Source: Nymphaea colorata
Lineage: Eukaryota > Streptophyta > Magnoliopsida > Nymphaeales > Nymphaeaceae
Length of the DNA stretch: 64,000 bases
Direction of reading: 5' to 3'
NCBI RefSeq assembly: GCF_008831285.2
Contig: NC_045143.1
Location: forward strand, 8,751,503 to 8,815,502
The position numbers and the translations under genes were made by a program. Under the pieces are notes generated by a model that saw only the letters and a list, made by a program, of their open reading frames with translations, had not been told where the DNA came from and ran no database searches. Shown piece after piece: positions 13,330 through 63,166 of this stretch (positions within the stretch are counted from its first letter, which is position 1; every line of letters starts with the position of its first letter).

Positions 13330-14111
13330 TAAGTTTTCCTTTTGGCCATATAAATAAATGCACTCAGAGTCACTCATAAAACTAAAGTGTACTTTTTACT
13401 TGGTACTAAACTTTATTTCTGTATACTTCTTTACAGGGCCGACCTTATTTAAGGGCAAAACATGCTTTAAGGACGTCATTTGTGGAACATACTCTCTTAA
13501 AAAGTTGTTGGGTCTCTCAACGGTTAGACTGGTTACTATCTATTCCTTCTCTTACTTCTTCCTTATGACGTGATGACACTGCTGTTTAGTGTTTTGCACT
13601 TCCATTCTCAGATAGCTGAGGGGCTTTTTATGCTCCTTTGTTGCGATAGTAGCTTGGAGCTTGATATTTTAGTTCCCTTATGAGCGCCCTAGGATCTGGG
13701 ACTTTTGTCTGCCAACAGTTAGCTTTACCCTGTAGATTATAGTTAAAATCCACCGCCTGTTGTGAGGTGGTTGCTGCTTTGTTTTTCATTTTCATGTACA
13801 CCTTTTAGTTGGTTTAAGATAATGCTACTCATAGTATTTTCCATGTTGAAATTATTCCCATTTGTTTATAATTTGATCATGCTAACGTCTTTGCACTGAG
13901 ATATAATTTGATATTTTTACATGTTGATGGTTTAACGTTTGAAATCAGAGTATCTACATCAGTGATCAATGTCTCTTTGCCATATCTGAATCATGAGATC
14001 TGGCTTTTAAGAATTTTATTTGTTACACTTATGATTTGGGTCCTTTGGCTTAAAATGCTTTCAAGTAACTAGTAATATTGAAAATTGAATCTTCATGTTT
14101 AACTATTGCAG

Positions 14112-15170
14112 AACTCAATTCCACATGTGAGGTTTGAGTTTCGTCAAGTTTTCTTTTTGACCGCTGTTTTATACAACTCAGTGCCTGATGGTGAGCATGG
14201 ATCAGTATCACCAAAAGCTTCTGCCTGTCAACAAGACTCACAAGAGAAGGTGACTGTACAAATACCCTCAGCAAATGAAGGAGATCCAGTTTCTATACAG
14301 AGTCAGTGCATGCTTCATATTAAGGAGCTCTTGAAGGCAGGCAGGTTGTTAGATGCTATTGAGTTTTGCAGAAATCTCTGTCGTAAACAAATTAGTATAA
14401 GCTTGACCACATACAATCTCCTGTTAATGGCAGCTGCACGAGCAAATGATTTTGTTCTTTCATCTCTCATCTTCAGAGAATTGTTAAATTGCCACTATCC
14501 TGATTCAACATCATACTCTGCCCTTGCAAAATCTTTTTTGCATGTAAAAGATGCAGAAACAATTCGCAGTTTTGGTAGAGATTTTTGTGAACTGACATTC
14601 TCTGGAGGTGCCACTGTCATGAACAGAATCATACTTGGATTTGCTGAAACAGGGCAGGCTGAGAAAGCACTGCAGATTTTCGAGGACATGAAATATCCAG
14701 ATTCAAAATGCAGTCCTGATAAAATTACATACAACACCATCCTAGCAATATTGGGAAAATCTGGTCGGATGCAGAAAATGCAAGATGAGTTTGATTCAAT
14801 GAAGGAATGTGGCCTTGTTCCTGATATCATTACTTATAATACCTTGGTCAATAGCTTTCGTAAACAGGGAAGATTAGATTCGTGCCATGTCCTTGTGAGA
14901 GAAATGATTGAAAGAGGAATAGAGCCTGATCTGCTTACATTCACTGCACTAATTGATGGTTTTGGTCGGCTTGGACATGTGGAGAAGGCACTGGAGCTTT
15001 TTTATGAGATGAAACGCCGGGGTATCCGCCTCTCCATTTATGTGTATAGGTCACTGATAAGTGTGCTAAAAAAGTCTGGGAATTTGCAGATGGCAGAGAA
15101 AATATTGGAAGAAATGAACGCAGCCGGACCAAATCTTGTAACCTCAAAAGACTTCAAGCGAAACAACTAG
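14112..15170 (+). CDS. P-class pentatricopeptide repeat protein, last coding exon (5' part unresolved)
   Basis: A long open exon starts after the acceptor 'attgcag' and ends at TAG 15168-15170, giving about 352 codons. From roughly residue 65 of this exon it is made of degenerate 35-residue helix-turn-helix PPR units. Typical unit starts include TYNLLLMAAARANDF, TYNTILAILGKSGRM, TYNTLVNSFRKQGRL, TFTALIDGFGRLGHV and VYRSLISVLKKSGNL, with proline or aspartate at the usual linker sites (CSPDKI, LVPDII, IEPDLL). There are no E, DYW or SMR tails, so it is a P-class protein. Such proteins bind single RNAs in mitochondria or plastids. The first in-frame Met in the exon is at 14310, inside the repeats, so the real start and transit peptide must lie in upstream exons, probably within 12.0-13.6 kb. 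The specific orthologue is not claimed. Confidence 0.85.
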   Translation, partial: NSIPHVRFEFRQVFFLTAVLYNSVPDGEHGSVSPKASACQQDSQEKVTVQIPSANEGDPVSIQSQCMLHIKELLKAGRLLDAIEFCRNLCRKQISISLTTYNLLLMAAARANDFVLSSLIFRELLNCHYPDSTSYSALAKSFLHVKDAETIRSFGRDFCELTFSGGATVMNRIILGFAETGQAEKALQIFEDMKYPDSKCSPDKITYNTILAILGKSGRMQKMQDEFDSMKECGLVPDIITYNTLVNSFRKQGRLDSCHVLVREMIERGIEPDLLTFTALIDGFGRLGHVEKALELFYEMKRRGIRLSIYVYRSLISVLKKSGNLQMAEKILEEMNAAGPNLVTSKDFKRNN

Positions 15171-26700: not shown

Positions 26701-29700
26701 CAGTTGCACACTGTATAGGTCAATAATGTATTCATTTTATGTATTTTGGCTATACAGCTATACTGTTGTGACTGTGTCTTACTGTATTCTGACTCTGTAT
26801 AGTGATTCTGTGGCTACTGAATTATGCATTTGTGTTATCATAATAGGTTTATAGATAGAACGCATACGCGTATCATTTTGTTTATCTATCAGTCTGCATA
26901 AAAGACTATTATTGATGTATTTGTGTTATCATAATAGGTTTATAGATAGGACGCATACGTGTATCATTTTGTTTATCTATCAGTCTGCATAAAAGACTAT
27001 TATTGATCTGCTATAGTACACATATATATGGGACTAGGTTCAACTATTCCCATCCTGGGGCTGGTTATTCCAACCCCTTTTCTGACCAGCTTTTTCTCTT
27101 TTTCCCTTCTTGTCAGGTTTCCTTTTTAAACATCCCCTCCACCCTAGGATTATTAAACTCTAGGGAGAAAAAGGGACTAGAACTGGTAAACCCTAAGCAG
27201 GAAAAGGGACTCGTTAACCATCTGTGTGTATACGTATACACACACAAATATCACTGCTCCTAAACCTTCTTAAAATTTATTCACGGCCACATCTGCACCC
27301 ACACCTGTGCTGGGATCCATTTAACATGACTTTTGTTACACTATGGATATAACAAATCATAAATAAACAATAGTCTTATTATTTATTAATTAATATAATT
27401 CAGTTAACTGGCTTGAGTCAATAATAAACTCAGTTGACACAGCCCAAGGCAAAAATGCTGACTTCACCCAGTCAAGTAATAGATTCATAACCTAGTGAAC
27501 CACATTTTCAATCAGTTGGTACCTAAACTGAGTCGACTCGAACGAGCCAACTTGTGACTTACCCAAGTTTGGCAACAATAGTAGTACTTGTTTAGAACAA
27601 AGTTCACAAACATGCTCAGAGTATCCAGATTTTCAGGCAAAAGTCACAAGGAATGATGCTATTTGGCTGAAATCCTTGAACAGTCATTCTTTCCACATCT
27701 TTAATTCTTTATACTCATGCAAGGAAAATAGTTTTTTTCCATGTTCAAATGAAACAGGCAATAACATAAGATGCACAAATGTTCGAGCTTTCATCAAATT
27801 AAGAAGGTGATCATACAACTAGTAGCTCAAATTTAAATATCAAAACTAACTTCAAGTTGGCTAAAATGAAATTGTAAAGATAATCACCATACCTATCCAA
27901 GTCCAGAAAGGGACTGTAAACAATAGCTTCCCAAGTTGCTACGATAAGATGCCAGGCAGGATTATAGTACAGTGACTCTGCTGACCAAAACATTCTTGTG
28001 TATGTCTCTAAGAAGATAAACATTATCCATGCAGCAATCTCCACCAAAATAAACTTAATAACAAATCGACCAACCACGACCATAACAAGGGAGAATGCCA
28101 CCAACCAGTTGAAAAGCCTGTGGTTATACTCTTTGATAAACAAGGACCTGGATTTCATGAGCATCTGCAGAAATTTTCCCAACATTAGTTGGTATCACAC
28201 TCATTTGTCTAAATAGAATTACATTTCCAGGTCCAGCCATACAGTAGGCATGAACATGTCCAGACAATTTTTGAACTGTCATGTGCCAGAATAACTCAGA
28301 CTCTCATGGAGCAAAGTGTCCACCTCACTTTTGTGTGCATGTGTGTGAAATATGAGCAAGTCAGTCACTGACTGACTGAAACAGAGAATGAGAAAGAGAG
28401 AAAGAGCATAGAATTTAGTCATCAACCAACATAATAATATGGACTGTGTTCCTAGAATAATATGTTCTTGGACAACCACACATGAACTCTACAATAACAT
28501 GTTGGACCTCAACCCACTAGGGAAGGGTTGAAATTAGGCCTTAGAAACAAGAGGTATGTTGCACCACATCACAAGTACATGTCCTGGACAAAGTAAAAAA
28601 ATTAGCTGAAAAAAATATGATCAGAATGGAAATAAGGGAAAAATTAAAAACCAAAACAACAGAAATTGTGCTCAAATTCTAAAGTCGCCAAAAGTCTAAA
28701 ATATCTGGACTACCAGTCTACCACAAATCAAATGATAACTGACCAAAGAAAAAAATTGAATAACCAAAATTTTGCAGGAACAAACGACCTAAGAAAAACA
28801 CTCACAATCATACTCTCAGAAATTTATCCATGAGATTGGTTTAGGGATTCTTTCATTTAGTTTTCTTAAGGAAAATCTCCAGAGTTCAAAACGTTAAAAA
28901 AATTTACTTTATGGAATAGTGGAAAACTTATGAAGTTTAGGGGTCTTAAATTCATACTCACAAATAACGTTTCGGAGTTTTAAACGGTGAGGTTTATCTC
29001 GGGTACAATACGGCGAGCTTGAAAAAAATGGAAAAATATGGTAAACTTTTAAAAATTAAAAAAAAAACTAAAAATGGAGGAAAAATAAAATAAGTGAAAA
29101 ACTAATAACACAATCATCAAAAGATAAGTAAATTTGCAACAAATAAAAATAGAATATGAAAAGAAAACTGTTTGGCACTAAAAATATGAAAAAAATGAAA
29201 TAAGTAAAAAAAACACGTTAAAAACGTATTTTTTAGCTTTTAACATTTTTTTATGTTTTAAACATCAATTTAATTTATCACGTTTTTTCGCTTTTTTTAA
29301 AAAAAACACGTTTTTTGTGACACTACTTTCATTCTTAATATTTCATAAAGAGAAAATGGAAAATATATATTTAAATTACATATGAAACAGAATTCTTTGT
29401 TATTGTTACTGACATTCTGAAATAGCGAGATATTTTAACAATTAAAACGTTTTTTTTCTTTCATGATAAGACTGTGATATTCTCAAAATGTAGCCAAGAT
29501 TTGTGGTGATATTTTTTACAGAAGGTGAATATAGTACACAATCACAAGGCTTTATCATAGCATATCATTGTTGATTGAAGCATATCTTACAACTTGTAAT
29601 ATTGTTCCTATATTTGTAGAAGAATGAAATTCAGACACCAACATTTGAAGTTCATACACAAAAGTCAAGATCCAACTACAATCCCTCAAACCTCTCAAGT

Positions 29701-34360: not shown

Positions 34361-37300
34361 TTCCCAGCCAAATCAATCCCTCCCTACCGAAACAGTCCAG
34401 ACGATCCTGACAAGAAATGCATCGATCTGCCAATCCAGCAGCTCGGGGAAGCACATGTCATCGAGCGCATTGATCCACCGAGCAAGGGAAAAGAATCCGG
34501 TAACGTGCGTTCCGCACCAGCAACGGATGCTTTCTTCTCCAACAATCCTCCCTTCCTTCCTTCCTAGTTTCCCATTTCTTTCCCTTTCCTCGCAGGTTTA
34601 CCTCCTTCTCTGGTTTTCAAACGCGTCGGGTACCGCCACACGTGATCCCGAGAAACCGCTGTGACACTCGCCGGAGAAAGAGAGAGAAAGCGAGGTGGCC
34701 CCCGGTTTCAAAGGAGGGACAATGAGAGAGATGTATTTATTGTGCATCCGGTCTTCACGGATTGAGTGTCTTGAGACAAGGGAGGTCTCCGCCTCGGCCG
34801 GACGTCACCAGAAGAACTCGGCCTCCGTCGTCCAGATGTGACTTGTGAGTTGCGAACTTTGGATATGGATCAGAGAATTATGAATTCGATGTCATTCAAA
34901 TCTGGATCTGACGAAATCCAAGCACTGCTCCAGCAGATAAGTGCATGTTTACTTTCTCTTGGATCTCGAATCTGAAATCCATATTGCATGAAATTCTCTC
35001 TAGATTTAAGCTCATCGTGGATCTCGGATCCATACCACTTGTAAGGAAAAAGGATCTGCGAGAGACGAAACCTTTCGTGACCTGATCCTTTATTAATGAA
35101 AATGCCTTAAAAGGAAGGTGTTTGATTGTCCATGATTTAAAATCCTTATGATTTGAAAGTCATGGATTTAAAATCCGACTCTTTCCTTCTGATTTTAAAT
35201 GAGACCTTTTCTCAATGCAAAAAGGCAGGACAAGGATTTCAAGTACAGTTTGATAAATCATGTATGGAATTTTTTGTCGCATCAGTAAAAGCATGACACA
35301 TTAAATACATGGATTTAAAATATAAAGTAATAAATGAGTTAGAATCCTATTTGGATACGGATCTGGCATGCCAAGTGAATCCAAATCTGGAAACTAAGTC
35401 ACCCAATTTATGTCTGTAACGTACTCAATCTCTAAAAAGATCTTTCTTTCAGTCATCAGATTTATACTTCAGATCCATGTACGAGTAATTCAGGTTCTAT
35501 AGTAGCAGCATGGATAAGGCATGCGCGTTTGAACGGTGGAGGAGAAAGTTTATAACAAGACTTTTTGTCACATTAGCTGACTATTTACAAAAATACAAAG
35601 AAATCGTGCGGGTTACTCGAATGTTTTGTCTTATACCGTGTAAACGCCTTTCTCCTATCAAACACGAGTGAAGAGTGAACCTTTAATTAAAACACAAATA
35701 AATTGCTGACCATTCTGAATAAGTGGGGTGCATTTTCTAAGGGTGTTTGTTTTGCCCCCTACTTAAAATCCTCAAGAACCATAGATTTAACATCAGATCA
35801 TCTCCTCTCGATCTTAAATATGAAATTTTTATCAACACAAACTGACAAAATAATGTCATTAGTTTGGTAAACCATGGATTTTGTTGTAGATCTTTTAGTC
35901 ACATTAGTAAAAGCATGCCACATAAAATTCTTGGATTTTAAATCAGAAGTAATCTTCTTAACAAAAATGAGGAAAATTAATCTAACATAAGTTTATTGTT
36001 TACCAATCATAATAGTTTAAAATCATAAAAAAGGAAAAAAATTAAGATTTACCATTGGAATAATTGAAATCGTGTGGACCTGATTCCAATTCTAATATCT
36101 TGATTTGGTTAATCATGCAAAGAGTTTTACTAAATAAACCATGAATAATCACATTTTGTATGTAAATAACATCTGGGTAGCTTGAGTTTAAGACAAGTAA
36201 CCTAAGGGCATGTGATCCAAATCCCAAAGCCGCCAAGAGATGTGCACATTGGGAACGGAAAGAAGAAAGCTGTGTGTGAAAGGTTCAAAAATAAATGTGT
36301 TTGAATCATCTGACAAAATGTCATTAGACAGCCCATCCCAAACACCCTGTCATAAGGAATAGTAACTTGGAGACATTTTCTCTCCAACATTTTCAAAATA
36401 GTTGTGCCCAATATTTTGGGGCCGTTTGGCAACAGTGACAAATTGTGAGTCTTTTCCTAAAAAATAAATCCCAAAAAATAAAGCAGATTCTTAGAACACT
36501 GGGAAAGATTAATAAGATAGTAACAAAATGTTATTGTGGCAAACAGCCCCTTTTACCCCTTTTAGTTCTATTTTTTTGAGCAAAAATTTGATCTTTTTTC
36601 TTCACTTTAAATTTAGAAATTATAGAAAAAAAAAAAGATGATATCCTATAACGAGTTTGCTCTAGTTTAATCAAGTAAATCTCATGTAACTCAAATTCAA
36701 TTCTGTTATAAGTTCAAGTTTTCAGTTAATCTCGAGCTCGACTCGTTTACAAACAAGCTTGAGCTGCAATGAACTTAACCCAAATGAGTTTAAGCTAAGG
36801 TCAAGCTGCTTTCCTCTTATGAATACATGGGGTTGTTTGGCAATAGTATTGTATTTGTTCAACAAATTGAGGTAGATAAAGATTGGCTGGTAAAAGCTAA
36901 AAATGTGAAGCATGTGTTTGGGTTTATCACTAAAAGGTGATCCCTTAGATAAAAAATTGTTCGCTTAGATCGTTTTCCCATAGTCAATGGGAAAGTTGTA
37001 GCACTTTTTTGGCAGTTAGCCGGCCGCGTCGGTGCTGGTTGTGAATTCCTCCACCACTGGATCCCAATGTAAAATAAGAGGTTTTTAATGTCACGGATAG
37101 CTTGGTTGCGCAAATGTAGGCACAAATCCAATAATCTGAATTCAAGAGACTTAATTGCTTCATAGGTAAGGTTAGGCGTCGGGCCGGATACTTGATCGGC
37201 ATCGGCTTCGGCTTGACTCGAGCAAGGGCATGGTTTAAAAAATTGGGCACCAAGCCAACCTGAAAAGTTGCCGGGCTGGGCTGACCCGACCTAGCGTGAC

Positions 37301-39259
37301 TTCGCTTGATAACTTACTTTTAATATTATTTTCTTGATTATATATATAATTATATATTTTTTATTATAGTTAATTATATTTGAATATTATTTTAAAATTT
37401 TTTAACCACCCAATGCCCAGCCTAATTCAGGGGCTTGGGAGACGCCCAACCTTATTCGGGGGCCTTATCCCATTTTGGGCAACGTTGGGGAGCCTTATCT
37501 CATATGAAAATAACTAAAATTTGTAAAACTGGTGTAGGCAATGGTTCTTACCAGCAGCGGAGCCCAGGGGCCTGGCCCTACCTTAATTTTTTTTTTTAAA
37601 AATATATGTAAATTTTAAAAAATTTCACTTGTATTATATAAAAATTTTGAAAAATGATATTTCGGCTCAGGTCAAAATTTAAAAACTTAATTCAGCCCGC
37701 TCATGAAAAATGTCTACCTTCGCCCCCAATTCGTACCAGCCCATGTAACTCCACTACTAGAACAAAAAAGTGTTCCTATCTTGTACATTCCAATATGAGA
37801 ATATGTGACCAGGAGCCCATTACTGTAGTGGAGTGCTCAATCCTCTGTTGTGCAGGTACTTGTGGACTTGTTTGGGTAATTTCTCACACAGTTCATATAA
37901 ATTGTTTGTTTACATATTAGTGTTCATAGTTATTTGCTCAGCAATTTGTTCATTTCCATATGGGTGCCTTTCAACTATTAAACTTTTGAAGGGTCTGCCC
38001 TCAGCTAGAAACTTCTGGCTCCACAATTGCATTTTACATCCTTACGTTCAAGTCAGAAAAGTATCAGACACCTAATGTGTACGTGAATTTCTAAAAAGCA
38101 TAAGGGCATCTTGGTAAAATATTTTGCAGCAAAATTCAGCAACTTCAGTAATTTTAATTACCGCTGCATGCCAGTGTTTGCTAATCTATTTCTTTCTCTC
38201 AAGTTAATATACCATTATATATATATCCATCTTTTTATATTTAAAAATCTTTTAATATAGATATGTAGATATGTATTTAGTTGCATACACCACGTACATG
38301 TGAATGTTTCAATATTGGGGAGCTTAGTTAAGGGTTAATTATTGCTTATTAATTTCAAAGAAACGTCACAATTCACACTTATTTTGTTATAACTTGAAAT
38401 AGTTAAATTTAAGTTGTTTCACATTTTATAACATGGCATAAATAATAATGTTATTTCACTCCCCTATATTGGGAGTGAGTTTTTAAAATATTATGTTATT
38501 TCACTAATTACGATTGAAGAAGAACATGCCATTCAAGATGTTTAGATACAGATTTATTAAAGAATTTATAAAATGCTAAATGTATATCTCTACCGTTCTC
38601 TAAAGCCCAGGTGTGTGGATGGGCCACCTCTTTAGTTGCAAGTGATACTACAAACACTTCTTTAAATATAAAGAATAGAGATCTCCTAATTTGTCTACCA
38701 GTTTTGAGCGGTCCGGCCATTTTAGCTAGTTTCTTTTAATACTGCACTATACAAATAAGGCTATAGCATTTAAAAATATATGGATTAAAAAGTAACTAAA
38801 AAACCAATATCCACGCTAAATTTTATGACTTGAGAAGCTTAGATTATTCAATTTTGAGTTCTTATGAAATCGAGATGCACACTGGGTTTTAGTGGTTTTT
38901 TTAGACATAGTTTTTGCACATACCAGTTACATCCTTACTTTCGACGACAAAAAGGACAGCTCGTCGTTTCCTGCCATTAGCAAACTGCATTTGCAGCAGA
39001 TGGTTTAAAGGACAAACAGTGTTAAACTTTGCTGTACTTGAATTAGATCAATGGCAACAGAACTTCCATTGACCATTGAGTGTTACAACATCATGAGAAT
39101 GAGAGCCCAAGCCAAAAGGGAAGAGAAGAGGCCACCTCTTCAACATCTTCCGCTATTTCCATTAGCTGGACCATATTTTTACACTGTACAAAAGGGTAGC
39201 CCTTGTACTAAATACCAACTATTTTTTTTTCCTTCAGGAGACTGAATAACCTCACAGGA
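34361..39259. other. intergenic: GBP promoter side, then repeats
   Basis: 34361-34850 is the GC-rich leader/promoter side of the GBP gene. The rest is AT-rich. At 37160-37290 a segment rich in 'gggcc', 'cggcttcgg' and 'gggctgggctgacccg' looks like a dispersed repeat. At 37555 a 'gcggagccca' terminus-like string occurs. Several segments with 'ttaaaatccttgg' and 'catggattt' (35120-35330, 35760-35960) resemble each other and may be one repeat family. No supported gene was found. Confidence 0.45.
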
Positions 39260-52752: not shown

Positions 52753-55700
52753 TCAAAGAAGAGGCATTGGCTTACTATTGCAGTTAAGTTGTGCGATGAC
52801 TCCATCTACTTTTTGCCTAACGTATGCATTTTTGAGTCTCCCAGTCAGATCAACAAGAAGAACTCTAGCCTGAATACCATATGCATCCACCATTCGGTTG
52901 TCCATAAAAATCTTCTCCAACAGATTCAGGGCCGCCTCCTTGATTGCTGCATTCTCCCTCCCTACAAGGTCTAAGATTGGGTAGATGGCACCAGCATCAG
53001 ACAGAACTCTCACTGCCTCAAAGACCATTGTTCCATCAACCAATGTAGCCAATGCCTGCAGTGCAGCAAGTGCAGCTTTATCACCATCTTGCAAAACATT
53101 TACTAGTTCTGACAGAGCATTAGCCTTCAGCAGACAAAAAGTCGTGGCTGTATCACAAACACCCCCATGAACTTCACACACAGAAAACCACAATGGCCAA
53201 AGGCACCAAAATCCAGTGTTCACTGGTGTTATGCTAAGTTTAGGTGTACTTGTGGATAAGTTGGTCATAATTGCAGCTGCTCTTGCCTTGGCTGTCTCAG
53301 TTCCAGATTTTAGGAAGTTTACAAGCAAGGGATAAGTACCCATTCGGACCACTGCTCTCTGCATCTCCAAATCCAATTGATTTGTGAACAGAAGGATTAC
53401 CCCAAGTGCATTTTCCTTCAATTCCGAGTTTTGAGAAGAAAGGAGTCTAAAGATCTCGCGTAAAGCATCTAATCTGAACAAAGCATGAGCTACAGCTGGT
53501 GCAGAACTTCGAAGGGATGATAAAATTCCTAGTACTGCTACCTGTAGTTCTGTCCTGCTGTCATCTTTGAGTAAGCTTAAAAAATTCACCAATCTATCCC
53601 CAAAGAGCAGATAATCTGCTAACTTTGTTGTTTCTTCACCACAGAAGCAGAACACCAAGTTAATGGCCATTTCTTGGATTTCATAGTTTGAGTCTTCTAG
53701 GAGAGGCAGAATAATAGAAATGCCATTAGCATCAGAGAAAGCTTTGTTGACAGGTTCTTCCCTTGATCTGCATATACCAACTAATGCCCCTAAAGCCAGC
53801 CTCCTAATCACATGGTTTGAAATTGGATTTTGCTGAAGGCATAGCAAGTTGGTGACTATAGGTTGCAGGTCTAAAGCAACAGCACATGCATCAACAAGAA
53901 ATTGAATGCAACTGCTTGCCACAAGCCGCTCAAGGATCACGGCACAACTTTCCCTAATGAGGGTAGAGATGTGGGCTGAAAACAATAAATCAAGAATGTA
54001 AGGGACAGCACCTGCACTTGCTATGTACTTTTTGTTCTCTTGGCAGGCGGATAACTTGGCTAGAACTCCCAAAGACACAGCTTTTGATTCAAGATTTCCA
54101 GATATCATGGCTACCAGCGGAGGGACTACCCCTTCCTCACCAAGAACCTTTAAGTTCTCATTGACCAATTCCATTTCCAGAAGGGCTTTAGCCAGCAACA
54201 ATCTTGATGATTCTGGCCCTACAGTGTGCAATAACAGAATCACAAATTATTCATATGCAGCACAGCATAACGAATGTGAATTTATTTGCAGGTGGCATCT
54301 TCAAAGTTCCAGGATGCTATCATGCAAAACACCAAATGAGAAACACATAAAAATGATTTTTTTAATTGCAAACTCATACTAAAATTACAATGATGCCTGA
54401 TGATTCTGTTTGGATTCCTACATTAAGTGATTTAGGGAAAATATAATTTGACCCAGTGGGCCTGGTCATGCATAAACCTTCAGCTTAACTTGTTAAAAAA
54501 ACAACCAAAAATATTTTCCCTAATGCTGAAGCGTGCATAGGCTGGATAAACTACAAGTCTACAAGTAGGACCAGCATTAAAGCATAATACAAATAGACAG
54601 ACAACCATATGACTAAAAGGAGTCGTTGACCGTTTGACAGATAAAATATAAAAAAAACATGCCATAAGTGGCCCGTTACCATTCTGCTTTAAGAATTATT
54701 TAATGACTAGCAGTAGCGTAGCCAGAAAACTAAAACAAGAGGTGCACAATATTTACTAAAACAAAAACATAATTACTATTAAATAAGAAATGTTTGCTTA
54801 TGCCCCATTCACTGTACTACAAAAAGAGCGGAGAGAGAGGAAGGAAAGGGATCAACCCACTTAAAATTTCTGCAAAAAGTAAACACTCATGCTTTTCTGA
54901 GAGAGAGAGGGAGGGGATCCACTCACTTCAATTTATTGGAAAAAGGAAATCTGGTTTTTCTAGAGAAGGGGGCATTCTAAGGAAATAGATGGGCCAAGAG
55001 GCCCAAACCCAGTTTTACTTGACTAGGCTCATCAAATGCTGAAACAAACGGATAACAGCACCAAGCGAGTAACCTACAAAGCCCATGGCCATAAACTTTT
55101 TATTTCCATGTGAAAAGGGTGGACTTACCTTGCTCAAGACGATTGCTAAGTGGCTTATACCAATTTGCTGCTGCAACTCGAACAATATTATCATCTTCAC
55201 CACAAATACACCACAAAATTGCTTCTGCCTTTTCAGCCGATCCTCGTACAGAACCTTTTAAAAGGGTAACAAGTAAATGAATTGCAGTGCTCTGTTGGCT
55301 TATGGTGTCATATACTGGTCTGTTCAATTTAGGTCCATCATACAGAAGCTCAAACAACAATTCAACTGCAGGCTTTGATATACTGGGGTTCTGATCCAGG
55401 CATTTCACAACTTGATCAATACCTCCAGAATCAACAAATCTCTCCTGTATGTATTGTTTACACATCAAATTTCCAGAGAGAGTATTAAAAAAGGTAAACA
55501 TACAACTCTTGCTTGTCAACTAAGAATTTGGTGCAACCAGAAGTTAACAAGAAAATGCACAACAGCAACACAAGTTAGTGAATTCCGTATATTCATCTCA
55601 GAATCTCTATCGAACATAAAACGGCAATCCAATGCTTCAAATTCATTCAAAGCAACAAGATATCTCACAAAATCAACTTAAAGCAATAAAATTGCTGGTT

Positions 55701-58700
55701 TAAGATGGATCATTGAACCATCAACTCCATGGTCTAAAAGTAACTTTATTGCCAGGAAAGCCTTTCTCCTATCAGACTCTTGAAGCTCAATTGTCTATGA
55801 CAAGATAAAACAAATATAACAACTAAATTTTGTGGTATACATTATTTGTTAATGAAAGTTGATTAAGATGAAAAGAAATGCTAAAACTGCAACGCCATAA
55901 AGAGTATTCTTAAGTATTTAGAGATGGCAGGTGTCGTTAGATAGCAACACTTCATGCTTCTTAGGAACAAAAAGTTCAACATGAATCTTCAGAATTGTTG
56001 TATTGAATATAGATTTCATGATTCAACACAGCAATTGCTGTCGTATGAACAAGCAGACTTGTCTAAATAAAAGTCAAATAAGCAACATGATAAACAGAAG
56101 GATGGCCGTAACTGAATTAATTGTGCCATTAGCAGCTAACAACAGAACACTTCGAAAAAATGGTTTTTGTAAAAACCTGGTTTTCTGAAAACATTTTTTT
56201 TAATGAGTTTTCAAAATCTGGTTTGTGTGTTTGGATGACACCTTGAAAACTAGGTTTTCAAAACCTGGTTTCTGTTTGGATGACAAAAAAATGAGTTTTG
56301 GAAAGTGCCCTTAATGATTAATTTCAGCTGAATGGCAGTTAATAGTCCATTAATTTAAACTGAAAGGTAGATTTAGAGAGCGAGAGAGAGAGAGAGAGAG
56401 AGAAATTATGGATTTCAAAGGAACTAAATTGTACAAGTAGGCAAGGAAAAAGAGAAAAAAATTGAAGAAATATTCATCTGAAAAATATGTCGGTATATCT
56501 CATTAAATATGACATAAATTAAACATGGGATTTGGGGAGGTTAAAAAATAATAATTTATTTTGTAAGTTAAAAGTGAACTAATAGTGGCTTGTGTATCTC
56601 ATTAAATGTATAACTATCTTCTCTCACTAACAAAAAAGAAAGAAAGTAAGATTGGCTTCTTATAAATAGAACACAATCTAAAATGGCCCTTAGAAATAAT
56701 AAAGATTTGAAGCTGATGTCGATTTTGAGCACAGTAATTACAAAAACAACAGAACGCTTGCATGCAACTCGGTTATAATAGGCAATGCAGCTGCATGTAT
56801 AATAATGCAATTACTCATGCAGGCATAATTGCATACGTAATAATGAAGTTGCGTGTTATTTTATTTTAAGGCAACGAAAAGGTAGACAAAATGCATTATT
56901 TTATTTCAGAGCAACACTGTTTTTCACTCAATATTATCAAATTAAAATACATGTTTAGCAGTGCTCTCTTGGCCTTATGATGTCATATACTGGACTATTC
57001 AATTTATGTCCATCGTACAGAAGCTCAAATCAACAGCAGGCTTTGATGTACTGGGGTTCCAATCTAGGCATCTCACGACTTGATCAATACCTTTAAAATC
57101 AAAAGCTCAAAATGCAAAACATGCATTTTAATATGATAATATTGAGTTAAAAACAGTGTTGCTCTCTTGTTTTATCATATGGATCGGAACCCCAGTATTG
57201 TTTCACTCTGTTTTATTATCATCATCTTCACACACACCAGAAAATGCATTGAGGGAGACAAAATAGTGTTTTTGAGTGAAAAACCTGCGCCCCCCAGGTT
57301 TTTCATTCAAAGCATGTAAACGTCATTTGCTGTAAATGAAGTTTTCTGAAAACGTTGTTTTGATTGCAACCAAACACACCCAAAATGGTGTTTTGGAGGC
57401 AAAACACCATTTACATCCAAAACACTATTTTTGGGCATGCAACCAAACACACCCTTAGATATTCAGATCAGAGAAGAAGCATGCATAGAGTCCTAGATAT
57501 GTCCGATGCTGATCAGCATTCATGTCTCACCAGTCAAAGTTTCTTCTTTCTTCAAAAACAAAAACACAATGTGTTTGTTTCTAACAAAGTAAGTCTACTC
57601 TTTGCCCCAATTTTAAGGTTCCAATGAATCTCTATATCAAATCGTAAAACTAAAGGAAAAAAAATCTCATCATTGCTTTGCATCCACATCTAGTTTGCAA
57701 TGCCTCTACTGAAGTCTTCCAAAACAGAGATTAACCATTTAAAGAAAGCCAGCAAATATTAAACAACTACAATTTTTTTTAGCAACTATTCTAATGGTGC
57801 TGGTGGTTAATGAAACCAATATATCATAGATACAAATGCACATAATGAACAGCAAAAGGTCAACTGCAGCTTATTTCTCACCTTATTCCTCGGGTGGTCC
57901 TTAACAAGCCCCATTAATGTAATCAGACCTGTTTCTTCTACAGATTTTTGTGAACTTCCTACAACTGACAGAACTATACTAATCAACCCTTCAGTTGCAA
58001 TCCAATCTTTGTTGATTGGATTCTGTTCAGTTAGCTCCTGTATTTGGTTTAAGGCATCCAAGATACGTGATTCCGTGCCAGAAAGCAGCCTGGATTTGGC
58101 ATTCCTGATCTTCAGACAGTAATTCAGTTCTTGCCACTCTTCAATTGATTCTTTCAAGCGAATATTAGGCCGTAAACTAACATCATCAAGGACTTCACCT
58201 GTTTCAGGGTCACTTGTCTGACCACCATCAATCCAGGCTTTGATGCATGCTCTTTCACATGTGGTACCAGTGCAAAGACTTACTGGGTCAATCATCACGT
58301 TTCCACCTATGGGGCAGATAAATGACCTAAAAGGGGGTATGTGGTCATCTTCAGTCGTGAACTTCTTAATGGTTTGAACCCTTCTAAAGTACAGCATTTC
58401 TACTTCTTCCTGATTATTCACTGCGTCAGCCCTGGAAAGGAGAGCTATAACCTGCTCCAAGAAACACTCTTCTGCTCTTTCTTTGCGGGCTGCTGCTTCT
58501 TCTTTCTCATGCTTAAAGCTAGCAATTTCCTTGTTTATCTCCAATGGCTCAACCGGCACACCTACTGCTCTTGCTATCTCTTCTAACAGATCATTTGCAA
58601 AGCCTTGGTCAGTCTTATGCTCCTTGAGGCCCTGCTGTAGTTTCTCAAGTATCCTAACCTGTGACAGTGAGGCCTCAAATTCTGCCTTCTGCATCTCATG

Positions 58701-59114
58701 ATGCAATTGATGGACCCTCTCACTCATGTCGGACAACACCTCAGAGCTTGCAAGGGATAAACTAGCCAAAGACCTACCAATGTTCCTTGTGACATCTTGT
58801 ACTTCCTTAACAATGTGCCTACACTTAATGAGTAAGTAGAATCGAGACCGGTTCTTATACTTGTCTACCAACTCCTTCGCCTTATTGATATCACTCTTCA
58901 GACTCTCAAGTGCATGCCTAACAGCCTGTGAGTCCTTGAGCTCCCTCAACTGTAATTCTTTCAAAACAGGCTCAATGTCGCACAAGTATTTTGATAGAAC
59001 CTTGAAGCTTTCCTTCTCAATAACAACATCCTTGGCAGCTAATGCAGTCCTTAGTACTTGCTCAGCTAATAAAGCCAAAAAGGTACCTACGGGAACAATT
59101 TCCAGCCCTAACAT
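52753..59114 (-). CDS. U-box and ARM-repeat E3 ubiquitin ligase (PUB42/43/44 type)
   Basis: Three minus-strand coding exons: 57882-59114 (411 codons), 55129-55444 and 52753-54218. They total 3015 nt, giving 1004 aa, with phases 0 and 1 closing. The N-terminal helical region (about 1-250) contains KDVVIEKESFKVLSK, SRFYLLIKCRHIV and DLLEEIARAVGVPVEP, the UND-type region of this PUB group. The U-box (about 264-335) has FICPIGGNVMIDPVSL, the expected hydrophobic/Pro residues and RPNIRLKESIEEW. It binds E2-ubiquitin. The rest is armadillo-like helical repeats to the end, including the characteristic GFWCLWPLWF and VCEVHGGVC/TTFCLLKA blocks. The length is that of the long PUB42-like members rather than the roughly 811-aa PUB43/44 (recalled). 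The Arabidopsis SAUL1/PUB44 group restrains senescence and cell death at membranes; that role here is inference. The start at 59112-59114 is the first ATG of the exon; a CT-rich leader lies at about 59670-59710. Confidence 0.92.
54700..54975. repeat. repeat in U-box gene intron 2 ('gtagcgtagccag' terminus)
   Basis: It begins 'gcagtagcgtagccagaaa' and 'gaggtgcacaata', similar in kind to the 'gcggagcca' termini at 353, 37555 and 63897. It is followed by two or three (GA)n-led subrepeats ('gagagagaggaaggaaaggg', 'gagagagagggagggga') each ending in 'gcttttct' or 'gtttttct'. No ORF. Confidence 0.4.
56155..56300. repeat. palindromic 'gttttcaaaacctgg' repeat in U-box intron 1
   Basis: Repeated and inverted 'aaaacctggtttt', 'ttttcaaaatctgg' and 'tttggatgacac' strings make this a hairpin-prone block. 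A relative lies at about 63040-63125 ('aaaaccagttttcacaaaac', 'ggtgtcatccaaacac'), in the opposite sense. Probably a short non-autonomous element. Confidence 0.5.
56907..57166. mobile_element. inverted-repeat element carrying a fragment of U-box exon 2
   Basis: The left arm 56907-56956 ('cagagcaacactgttttt' ... 'acatgttt') and right arm 57116-57166 ('aaaacatgcattttaa' ... 'cagtgttgctctc') are inverted repeats of about 50 bases with only a few mismatches. Between them, 56958-57104 is a copy of the U-box gene's exon 2 (55284-55434) in the same orientation, roughly 85-90% alike by eye. It has a one-base insertion and a 6-base deletion, so it cannot encode. This is the arrangement of a gene-fragment-capturing (Pack-type) element. 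Confidence 0.7.
57259..57454. repeat. palindrome-rich MITE-like block in U-box intron 1
   Basis: A perfect 12-base inverted repeat (AAATGGTGTTTT at 57383-57394, AAAACACCATTT at 57401-57412, 6-base loop) is bracketed by a perfect 16-base direct repeat 'gcaaccaaacacaccc' (57366-57381 and 57439-57454). Outside it lies an inverted pair 'aaaatagtgttttt' (57260) and 'aaaacactattttt' (57419). Confidence 0.7.
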
Positions 59115-61740: not shown

Positions 61741-62752
<1,012 letters not shown>

Positions 62753-63166
62753 CGTGTAGGCAAATAACATGTCACCACTCAACTTTTGAGAGAAACAATC
62801 GCTTAGTTGCTAAAGGGAAGCATTGGTTTTTTATATAAAAATTTAAAATGGTAAAAAATACCTATTACAAAAACTACTCTTCCCATGGTTGGAAAAGATA
62901 TTTTACAAGAAATCATGGGTTGTTTGCGTTGTTTTATACCAACCGGCCCGATTTGGGATATTGCAAAATGTTGTTTTTTCTCCGAAATGGCGTTTTTGGA
63001 ATGTCTAATAACATGCCCCTTCTCCTGTGTTATTCACAAAAGCCGGTTTTAGAAAATGTTTGAAAGTCATTTTTTCATAAAACCAGTTTTCACAAAACAT
63101 TTGTTTTCTCGGTGTCATCCAAACACAGCCTGTATTTTCATGTAATTTAGTAGATGGCTCCTTGGG
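62753..63166. other. intergenic with a hairpin-prone 'aaaaccagttttcac' repeat
   Basis: At about 63040-63125 the block resembles the 56155-56300 repeat in inverted orientation. The adjacent 62930-63010 part ('aaatggcgtttttgg') resembles the 57259-57454 block. No gene. Confidence 0.45.

Follow-up and report, generated by a model that had tools for sequence, protein, structure and literature searches.

The window, that is, the whole 64,000-nucleotide stretch of DNA analysed here (G000:C6:8751503-8815502, from a searched genome of 407.8 Mb in 783 contigs), holds a gene of the plant PUB type in whose first intron a partial copy of its own second exon is embedded between two 53-nt inverted arms (Table 1). 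Joined together, the three exons of this U-box/ARM gene give an open frame with a single terminal stop, and both introns run from GT to AG. Pfam searches recognised a U-box in exon 1 (1.2e-14) and Arm repeats in exon 3 (2.3e-17), and exon 2 searched alone found no Pfam match. Elsewhere in the window, 14103-15167 is an open frame with pentatricopeptide repeats (Pfam PPR_2, 3.4e-48), and 62267-62809, which can be read as an Ile-Tyr repeat frame, is made up of long (TA)n tracts and two near-identical interspersed units and looks like a repeat rather than a gene.

Table 1 Features of the U-box/ARM locus, in window coordinates
Feature	Position	Strand	Remarks
U-box/ARM-repeat gene (plant PUB type)	52753..59114	-	Exons 57882-59114, 55129-55444 and 52753-54218; 1004 aa
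Donor segment, part of exon 2	55284..55434	-	Inside the exon, reaching neither splice site
Degenerate dispersed transposon copy in intron 1	56146..57457		Genomic relatives compared
Left arm	56908..56960	+	Taken to be native to the transposon interior, with good support in the outer half and weak support in the inner
Filler piece 1, 144-nt exon-2 copy	56959..57102	-	Oriented like the gene
Filler piece 2 (right arm)	57106..57165		Transposon sequence from the left side of the exon copy, duplicated in inverted orientation
Filler piece 3, 19-nt inverted exon-2 piece	57180..57198	+	Matches 55380-55398, 18/19
Transposon resumes, to its right end	57205..57457		L021, L026, L023 and L022 match from 57205, 57227, 57253 and 57270

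A preliminary description of this DNA had proposed that a fragment of exon 2 sits between inverted repeats in intron 1, and this was confirmed: 55271-55434 aligns locally with 56945-57102 (E = 1.6e-38 within the window), and the arms are complementary at 49/53 positions. In the core of the alignment (55284-55434 against 56959-57102) 16 of 143 aligned bases differ (11.2%), with a 7-nt gap and a 1-nt insertion. The copy lies 1675 bp (~1.7 kb) from the parent exon. It does lie between the arms, but not exactly so as had been stated: on the left, exon homology begins within the final 2 bases of the arm, and on the right about 10 nt (57103-57112) separate the two. The copy is without either splice junction of exon 2, its 7-nt deletion is a frameshift, and all three sense frames contain stops. 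The differences fall at codon positions 1, 2 and 3 in the numbers 3, 7 and 6 (5 synonymous, 11 nonsynonymous, hence no synonymous excess). With no codon-position bias, the copy behaves like a neutral copy and not like a long-constrained divergent paralogue, in keeping with the proposal of a host-exon fragment inside transposon-derived DNA. Exon 2 was matched at two places in the genome, both in the U-box/ARM gene, namely itself and the intron copy; the genome DNA searches score best candidates only, and absence elsewhere holds at that sensitivity.

The DNA around the copy belongs to a larger unit that the preliminary description had missed. One search of the genome with 56560-56910 returned eight places, that is, the query itself and seven other copies, and all seven were taken with their flanks and compared with 55450-57899 at E <= 0.01. 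From the joint comparison, 56146-57457 emerges as a single dispersed element, probably a non-autonomous DNA transposon. Its right end, near 57457, is common to L022, L023 and L026 and reads GGGCATGCAACCAAACAC.CCCTTA, which we take to resemble hAT-type ends, the class being only suggested and the TIR class resting on end motifs. Neither a transposase nor a target duplication was shown for 56146-57457, and inspection by eye revealed no convincing target-site duplication beside the arms or the outer element ends, where the flanks are AT-rich. The right part of the transposon also holds two short imperfect palindromes (57271-57311, 83%; 57379-57434, 75%).

Three of the relatives cross the site of the patch. 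Their left parts run to 56876 (L021) or 56916 (L022 and L023), and 0 to 30 bases, in their own coordinates, lie between the left and right matched parts. In L026 the left part is cut short at 56677 and the right part is present; L024 and L025 stop before the site (56742 and 56805). At E <= 0.01, the exon copy was matched in 0 of the 7 other copies, and two separate arms were likewise found in none of the 7. The pre-break state of the sequence between ~56945 and 57220 is matched by no single relative.

The arms themselves (56908-56960 and 57113-57165; sequence pattern CAATATTATCANATTAAAATNCATGTTTNGCA) pair without gaps at 92% of positions, leaving 4/53 mismatched (7.5%), and none of 1000 Markov shuffles of the left-arm stretch reached the arm score. 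For the right arm, a decomposition script chose the reverse strand of the left flank as the best template; its inner edge is uncertain, lying at 57106 by eye, at 57113 in the arm alignment and at 57117 in the template decomposition. Outside the right arm we found a feature absent from the preliminary description, a second, inverted piece of exon 2 at 57180-57198. With exon 2 and its copy excluded, no other 19-mer on either strand of the 64 kb matches exon 2 as well (the next best separate place reaches 17/19), and this piece is the only antisense part of exon 2 that was recognised. When the right flank (57166-57260) was aligned locally to exon 2 with gaps allowed, 15 of 2000 Markov shuffles and 3 of 548 real windows scored at least as high; the inverted piece rests on the ungapped 18/19 match. 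A likeness of 57214-57245 to exon 2 (79%) was not used because the L021 transposon is the better template there, and a direct repeat (56856-56875 / 56896-56915) was rejected as part of the event because L022 and L023 also hold both units.

The octamer AAAATGCA occurs three times around the patch (56888, 57109 and 57241), and its reverse complement once (57122). It was not used as a target-site duplication because the occurrences at 56888 and 57241 have counterparts in the relatives. Within the right arm there is a small hairpin (AAAATGCA..TGCATTTT), which may be a former fragile site.

As to which arm is original, L021 reads AGAGCAACGCTGTTTTTCACTCAAT in element orientation, agreeing with the left arm at 24/25 positions and with the reversed right arm at 23/25, and departs from the inner half of the left arm. 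L022 and L023 are without most of the outer-arm stretch, and where the inner left arm would stand they have (A/T)AAAATA..., which resembles it loosely. Since the outer left arm matches L021 directly, the right arm would be the inverted newcomer, and we take the left arm to be native, a reading that is firm in the outer half and weak in the inner.

Other copies of the arms had been anticipated, and they exist, in that the outer half is native to L021 and a search of the genome with the arms, in which best candidates were scored, led to one other place, C1:4782007-4782052, although the latter is a single arm. There the segment is inverted; it is identical to the inner right arm at 35/35 positions and agrees with it at 42/46 over the whole match and with the left arm at 37/43, so that both window arms are matched by one and the same segment. 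The remainder of this C1 copy, one of the seven compared, is 77-87% identical to the window, with one 36-nt piece at 92%, and it is composed of the left part followed by the inverted arm segment, with nested inserts and no right end. Two histories would account for this: a stretch rich in palindromes was inverted on two separate occasions, or an inverted arm was present before the exon was patched in. A comparison over 18 kb at E <= 1e-3 led us to reject C1 as a homeolog (gene duplicate) of the U-box gene, as within the gene region only 56148-56891 and one arm match, and no exon. The C1 transposon relative (L007, G000:C1:4782007-4783438) is interrupted by two further inserts, the first with CACCTG/CAGGTG-like ends and the second beginning TAGGGCTGGGCATCGGCCC beside AAATG repeats and similar in part to window 37279-37407 (66%). 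A further dispersed repeat of the window, 28977-29333, is 69.5% identical over 364 columns to C1:4783495-4783838, which adjoins the C1 transposon copy.

Given this anatomy, the unpatched transposon copies, and a search that at its sensitivity found no other piece of the exon, we consider it probable that the patch is a local-template filling of a break in a resident transposon, and thus a fossil of sloppy repair rather than a mobile gene-capturing element. Across 56940-57260, the decomposition script returned exon 2 in direct orientation (56945-57102), the reverse of the left flank (57117-57165), exon 2 in reverse (57180-57198) and the transposon in direct orientation (57205-57260); the intervening stretches, of up to 14 nt, are too short for the script, and the edge of the direct exon-2 piece overlaps the arm by weak extension. 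The insert is therefore built of pieces that match nearby DNA, reverse complement included, and such serial copying from local templates in both orientations, at a break inside a transposon, is the signature of templated-insertion repair. In particular, serial template switching would be expected to leave an inverted 19-nt exon piece outside the arms, and capture between termini would not. At the left junction, arm and exon have GCA in common, or TTGCA if TTTTGCA, as read in the right arm and in C1, is the original state; this putative microhomology is of only 3-5 nt and of a kind that AT-rich DNA makes cheap.

We infer that a non-autonomous DNA transposon was already resident in intron 1 when it came open at ~56958, through a double-strand break or at a stalled fork, beside a short hairpin-prone stretch. 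Repair would have been error-prone and guided by microhomology, whether as polymerase-theta-type end joining or as a template-switching gap fill, and would have copied first ~150 nt of the same gene's exon 2, which lies 1.7 kb away with matching orientation. Snap-back copying of the transposon flank left of the break would then have produced the inverted right arm; a few further bases and 19 nt copied off the opposite strand of exon 2 would have come next, before the transposon was rejoined near 57205. The outcome would be a single-copy, immobile and neutrally decaying patch. A ~150-nt template ~1.7 kb away is closer to SDSA/MMBIR-like template switching by models.

That all of this happened in a single event is compatible with the divergences of the arms (4/53) and of the exon copy (16/143), which are not distinguishable (Fisher p 0.60). 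Against a single event stands the C1 inverted arm, whose perfect agreement with the inner right arm could mean that the arm was inverted before the exon was patched in. The same C1 segment speaks for a history in two steps, in which a subfamily of the transposon gained an internal inverted repeat (fold-back) and a piece of exon 2 later filled the loop after a hairpin break at this locus. A hairpin loop is a plausible break site, and the exon copy is nominally, though not significantly, more diverged than the arms. We nonetheless regard the two-step history as unlikely, given that none of the seven other copies has two separate arms at E <= 0.01, that C1 is itself rearranged and its inversion may be independent, and that the inverted exon piece beyond the right arm ties exon copying to the right-hand junction too.

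The preliminary description had read the arms as the ends of a mobile Pack-type element that captured exon 2, moved, and landed back in its donor gene. An exon copy between inverted arms does have that look, and Pack-MULEs are known in plants according to Tan et al. 2021 (PMC8277862). The arms are, however, interior to 56146-57457, relatives cross the site with no second arm, and the other arm copy from the direct search, in C1, is unpaired. Nor does capture elsewhere followed by return fit a fragment that is in 0/7 other copies examined (E <= 0.01) and an exon found, among the best candidates scored, only in this gene; beside the arms, inspection by eye offered no convincing target-site duplication. 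Mobile capture is thus largely refuted, and we rejected it as very improbable.

It is very improbable that the copy is simply an old duplication of part of the exon into which repeats later inserted: it is in the same gene and orientation, 1675 bp from its parent, but it has no intron flanks or splice junctions, directly abuts transposon sequence and has an inverted 19-nt exon-2 piece nearby. Equally little credence can be given to a stem-loop kept as a small-RNA source or regulatory exon of its own gene, although the predicted fold is strong (-100.2 kcal/mol, z -10.3, with 0 of 200 shuffles as good), because the inverted repeat by itself accounts for this stability. The stem consists of transposon DNA with 4/53 arm positions mismatched, and the exon copy lies in the loop in sense orientation, so that small RNAs against the gene's own mRNA, as had been suggested, would not be expected from it. 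A decoy exon, also proposed, appears similarly ill-suited to a neutrally decaying segment with a frameshift, stops in every sense frame and neither splice junction. Judged from the sequence, a neutral scar is the most economical reading, probably with no effect on the U-box/ARM gene.

As a probable break filled from local templates, the locus preserves inside a plant intron a legible record of repair with several templates, and it illustrates how the scar of a repair can pass for a transposon that captures genes. Among the matches listed in the open-access literature (titles and abstract openings), no plant gene with the same arrangement was found. The locus is like plant Pack-MULEs and other Pack-type elements (PMC8277862) in carrying a host exon fragment within transposon DNA. 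It is unlike Pack-MULEs in that the element's terminal inverted repeats do not form the borders of the fragment and that no moved copy was found among the best candidates scored.

Closer parallels come from break repair. In Arabidopsis, PMC5217109 describes break-repair inserts of complex composition, including reverse-complement stretches, many of which match sequence within 100 bp. The patch is like the templated insertions of polymerase-theta-type end joining in plants in its composite of direct and reverse-complement nearby pieces and its putative short microhomology; unlike the inserts described there, many of them templated <100 bp from the break, it has one template of ~150 nt lying ~1.7 kb away.

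Animal single-copy Pack-TIRs, according to PMC8277862, are mostly gap fillings independent of transposition: 160 of 281 (56.9%) lie <=15 kb from the parent, and 190 of 281 have microhomology at at least one breakpoint (1-36 bp, median 2 bp). Our locus is like gap-filled Pack-TIRs in having a host fragment in a dispersed DNA element, as a single copy with its parent 1.7 kb away, and in its putative short microhomology and a breakpoint inside the element, not at its ends. It differs from those animal cases in a filler that also holds an inverted transposon flank and an inverted exon piece, and in an element whose TIR class is only suggested, by its end motifs. We think there is an even chance that the locus is a plant case of transposition-independent 'Pack' formation, in which a break at a hairpin inside the resident transposon was filled with the gene's own exon and then, by snap-back, with the flank, a single step thereby giving a Pack-type look. 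The authors of PMC8277862 regard gap filling as worth exploring for plant Pack-MULEs, and this locus is a candidate plant case for that question. If Pack formation by repair were true of plants and general, some catalogued low-copy plant Pack-type elements would be repair scars, and such scars could found new elements.
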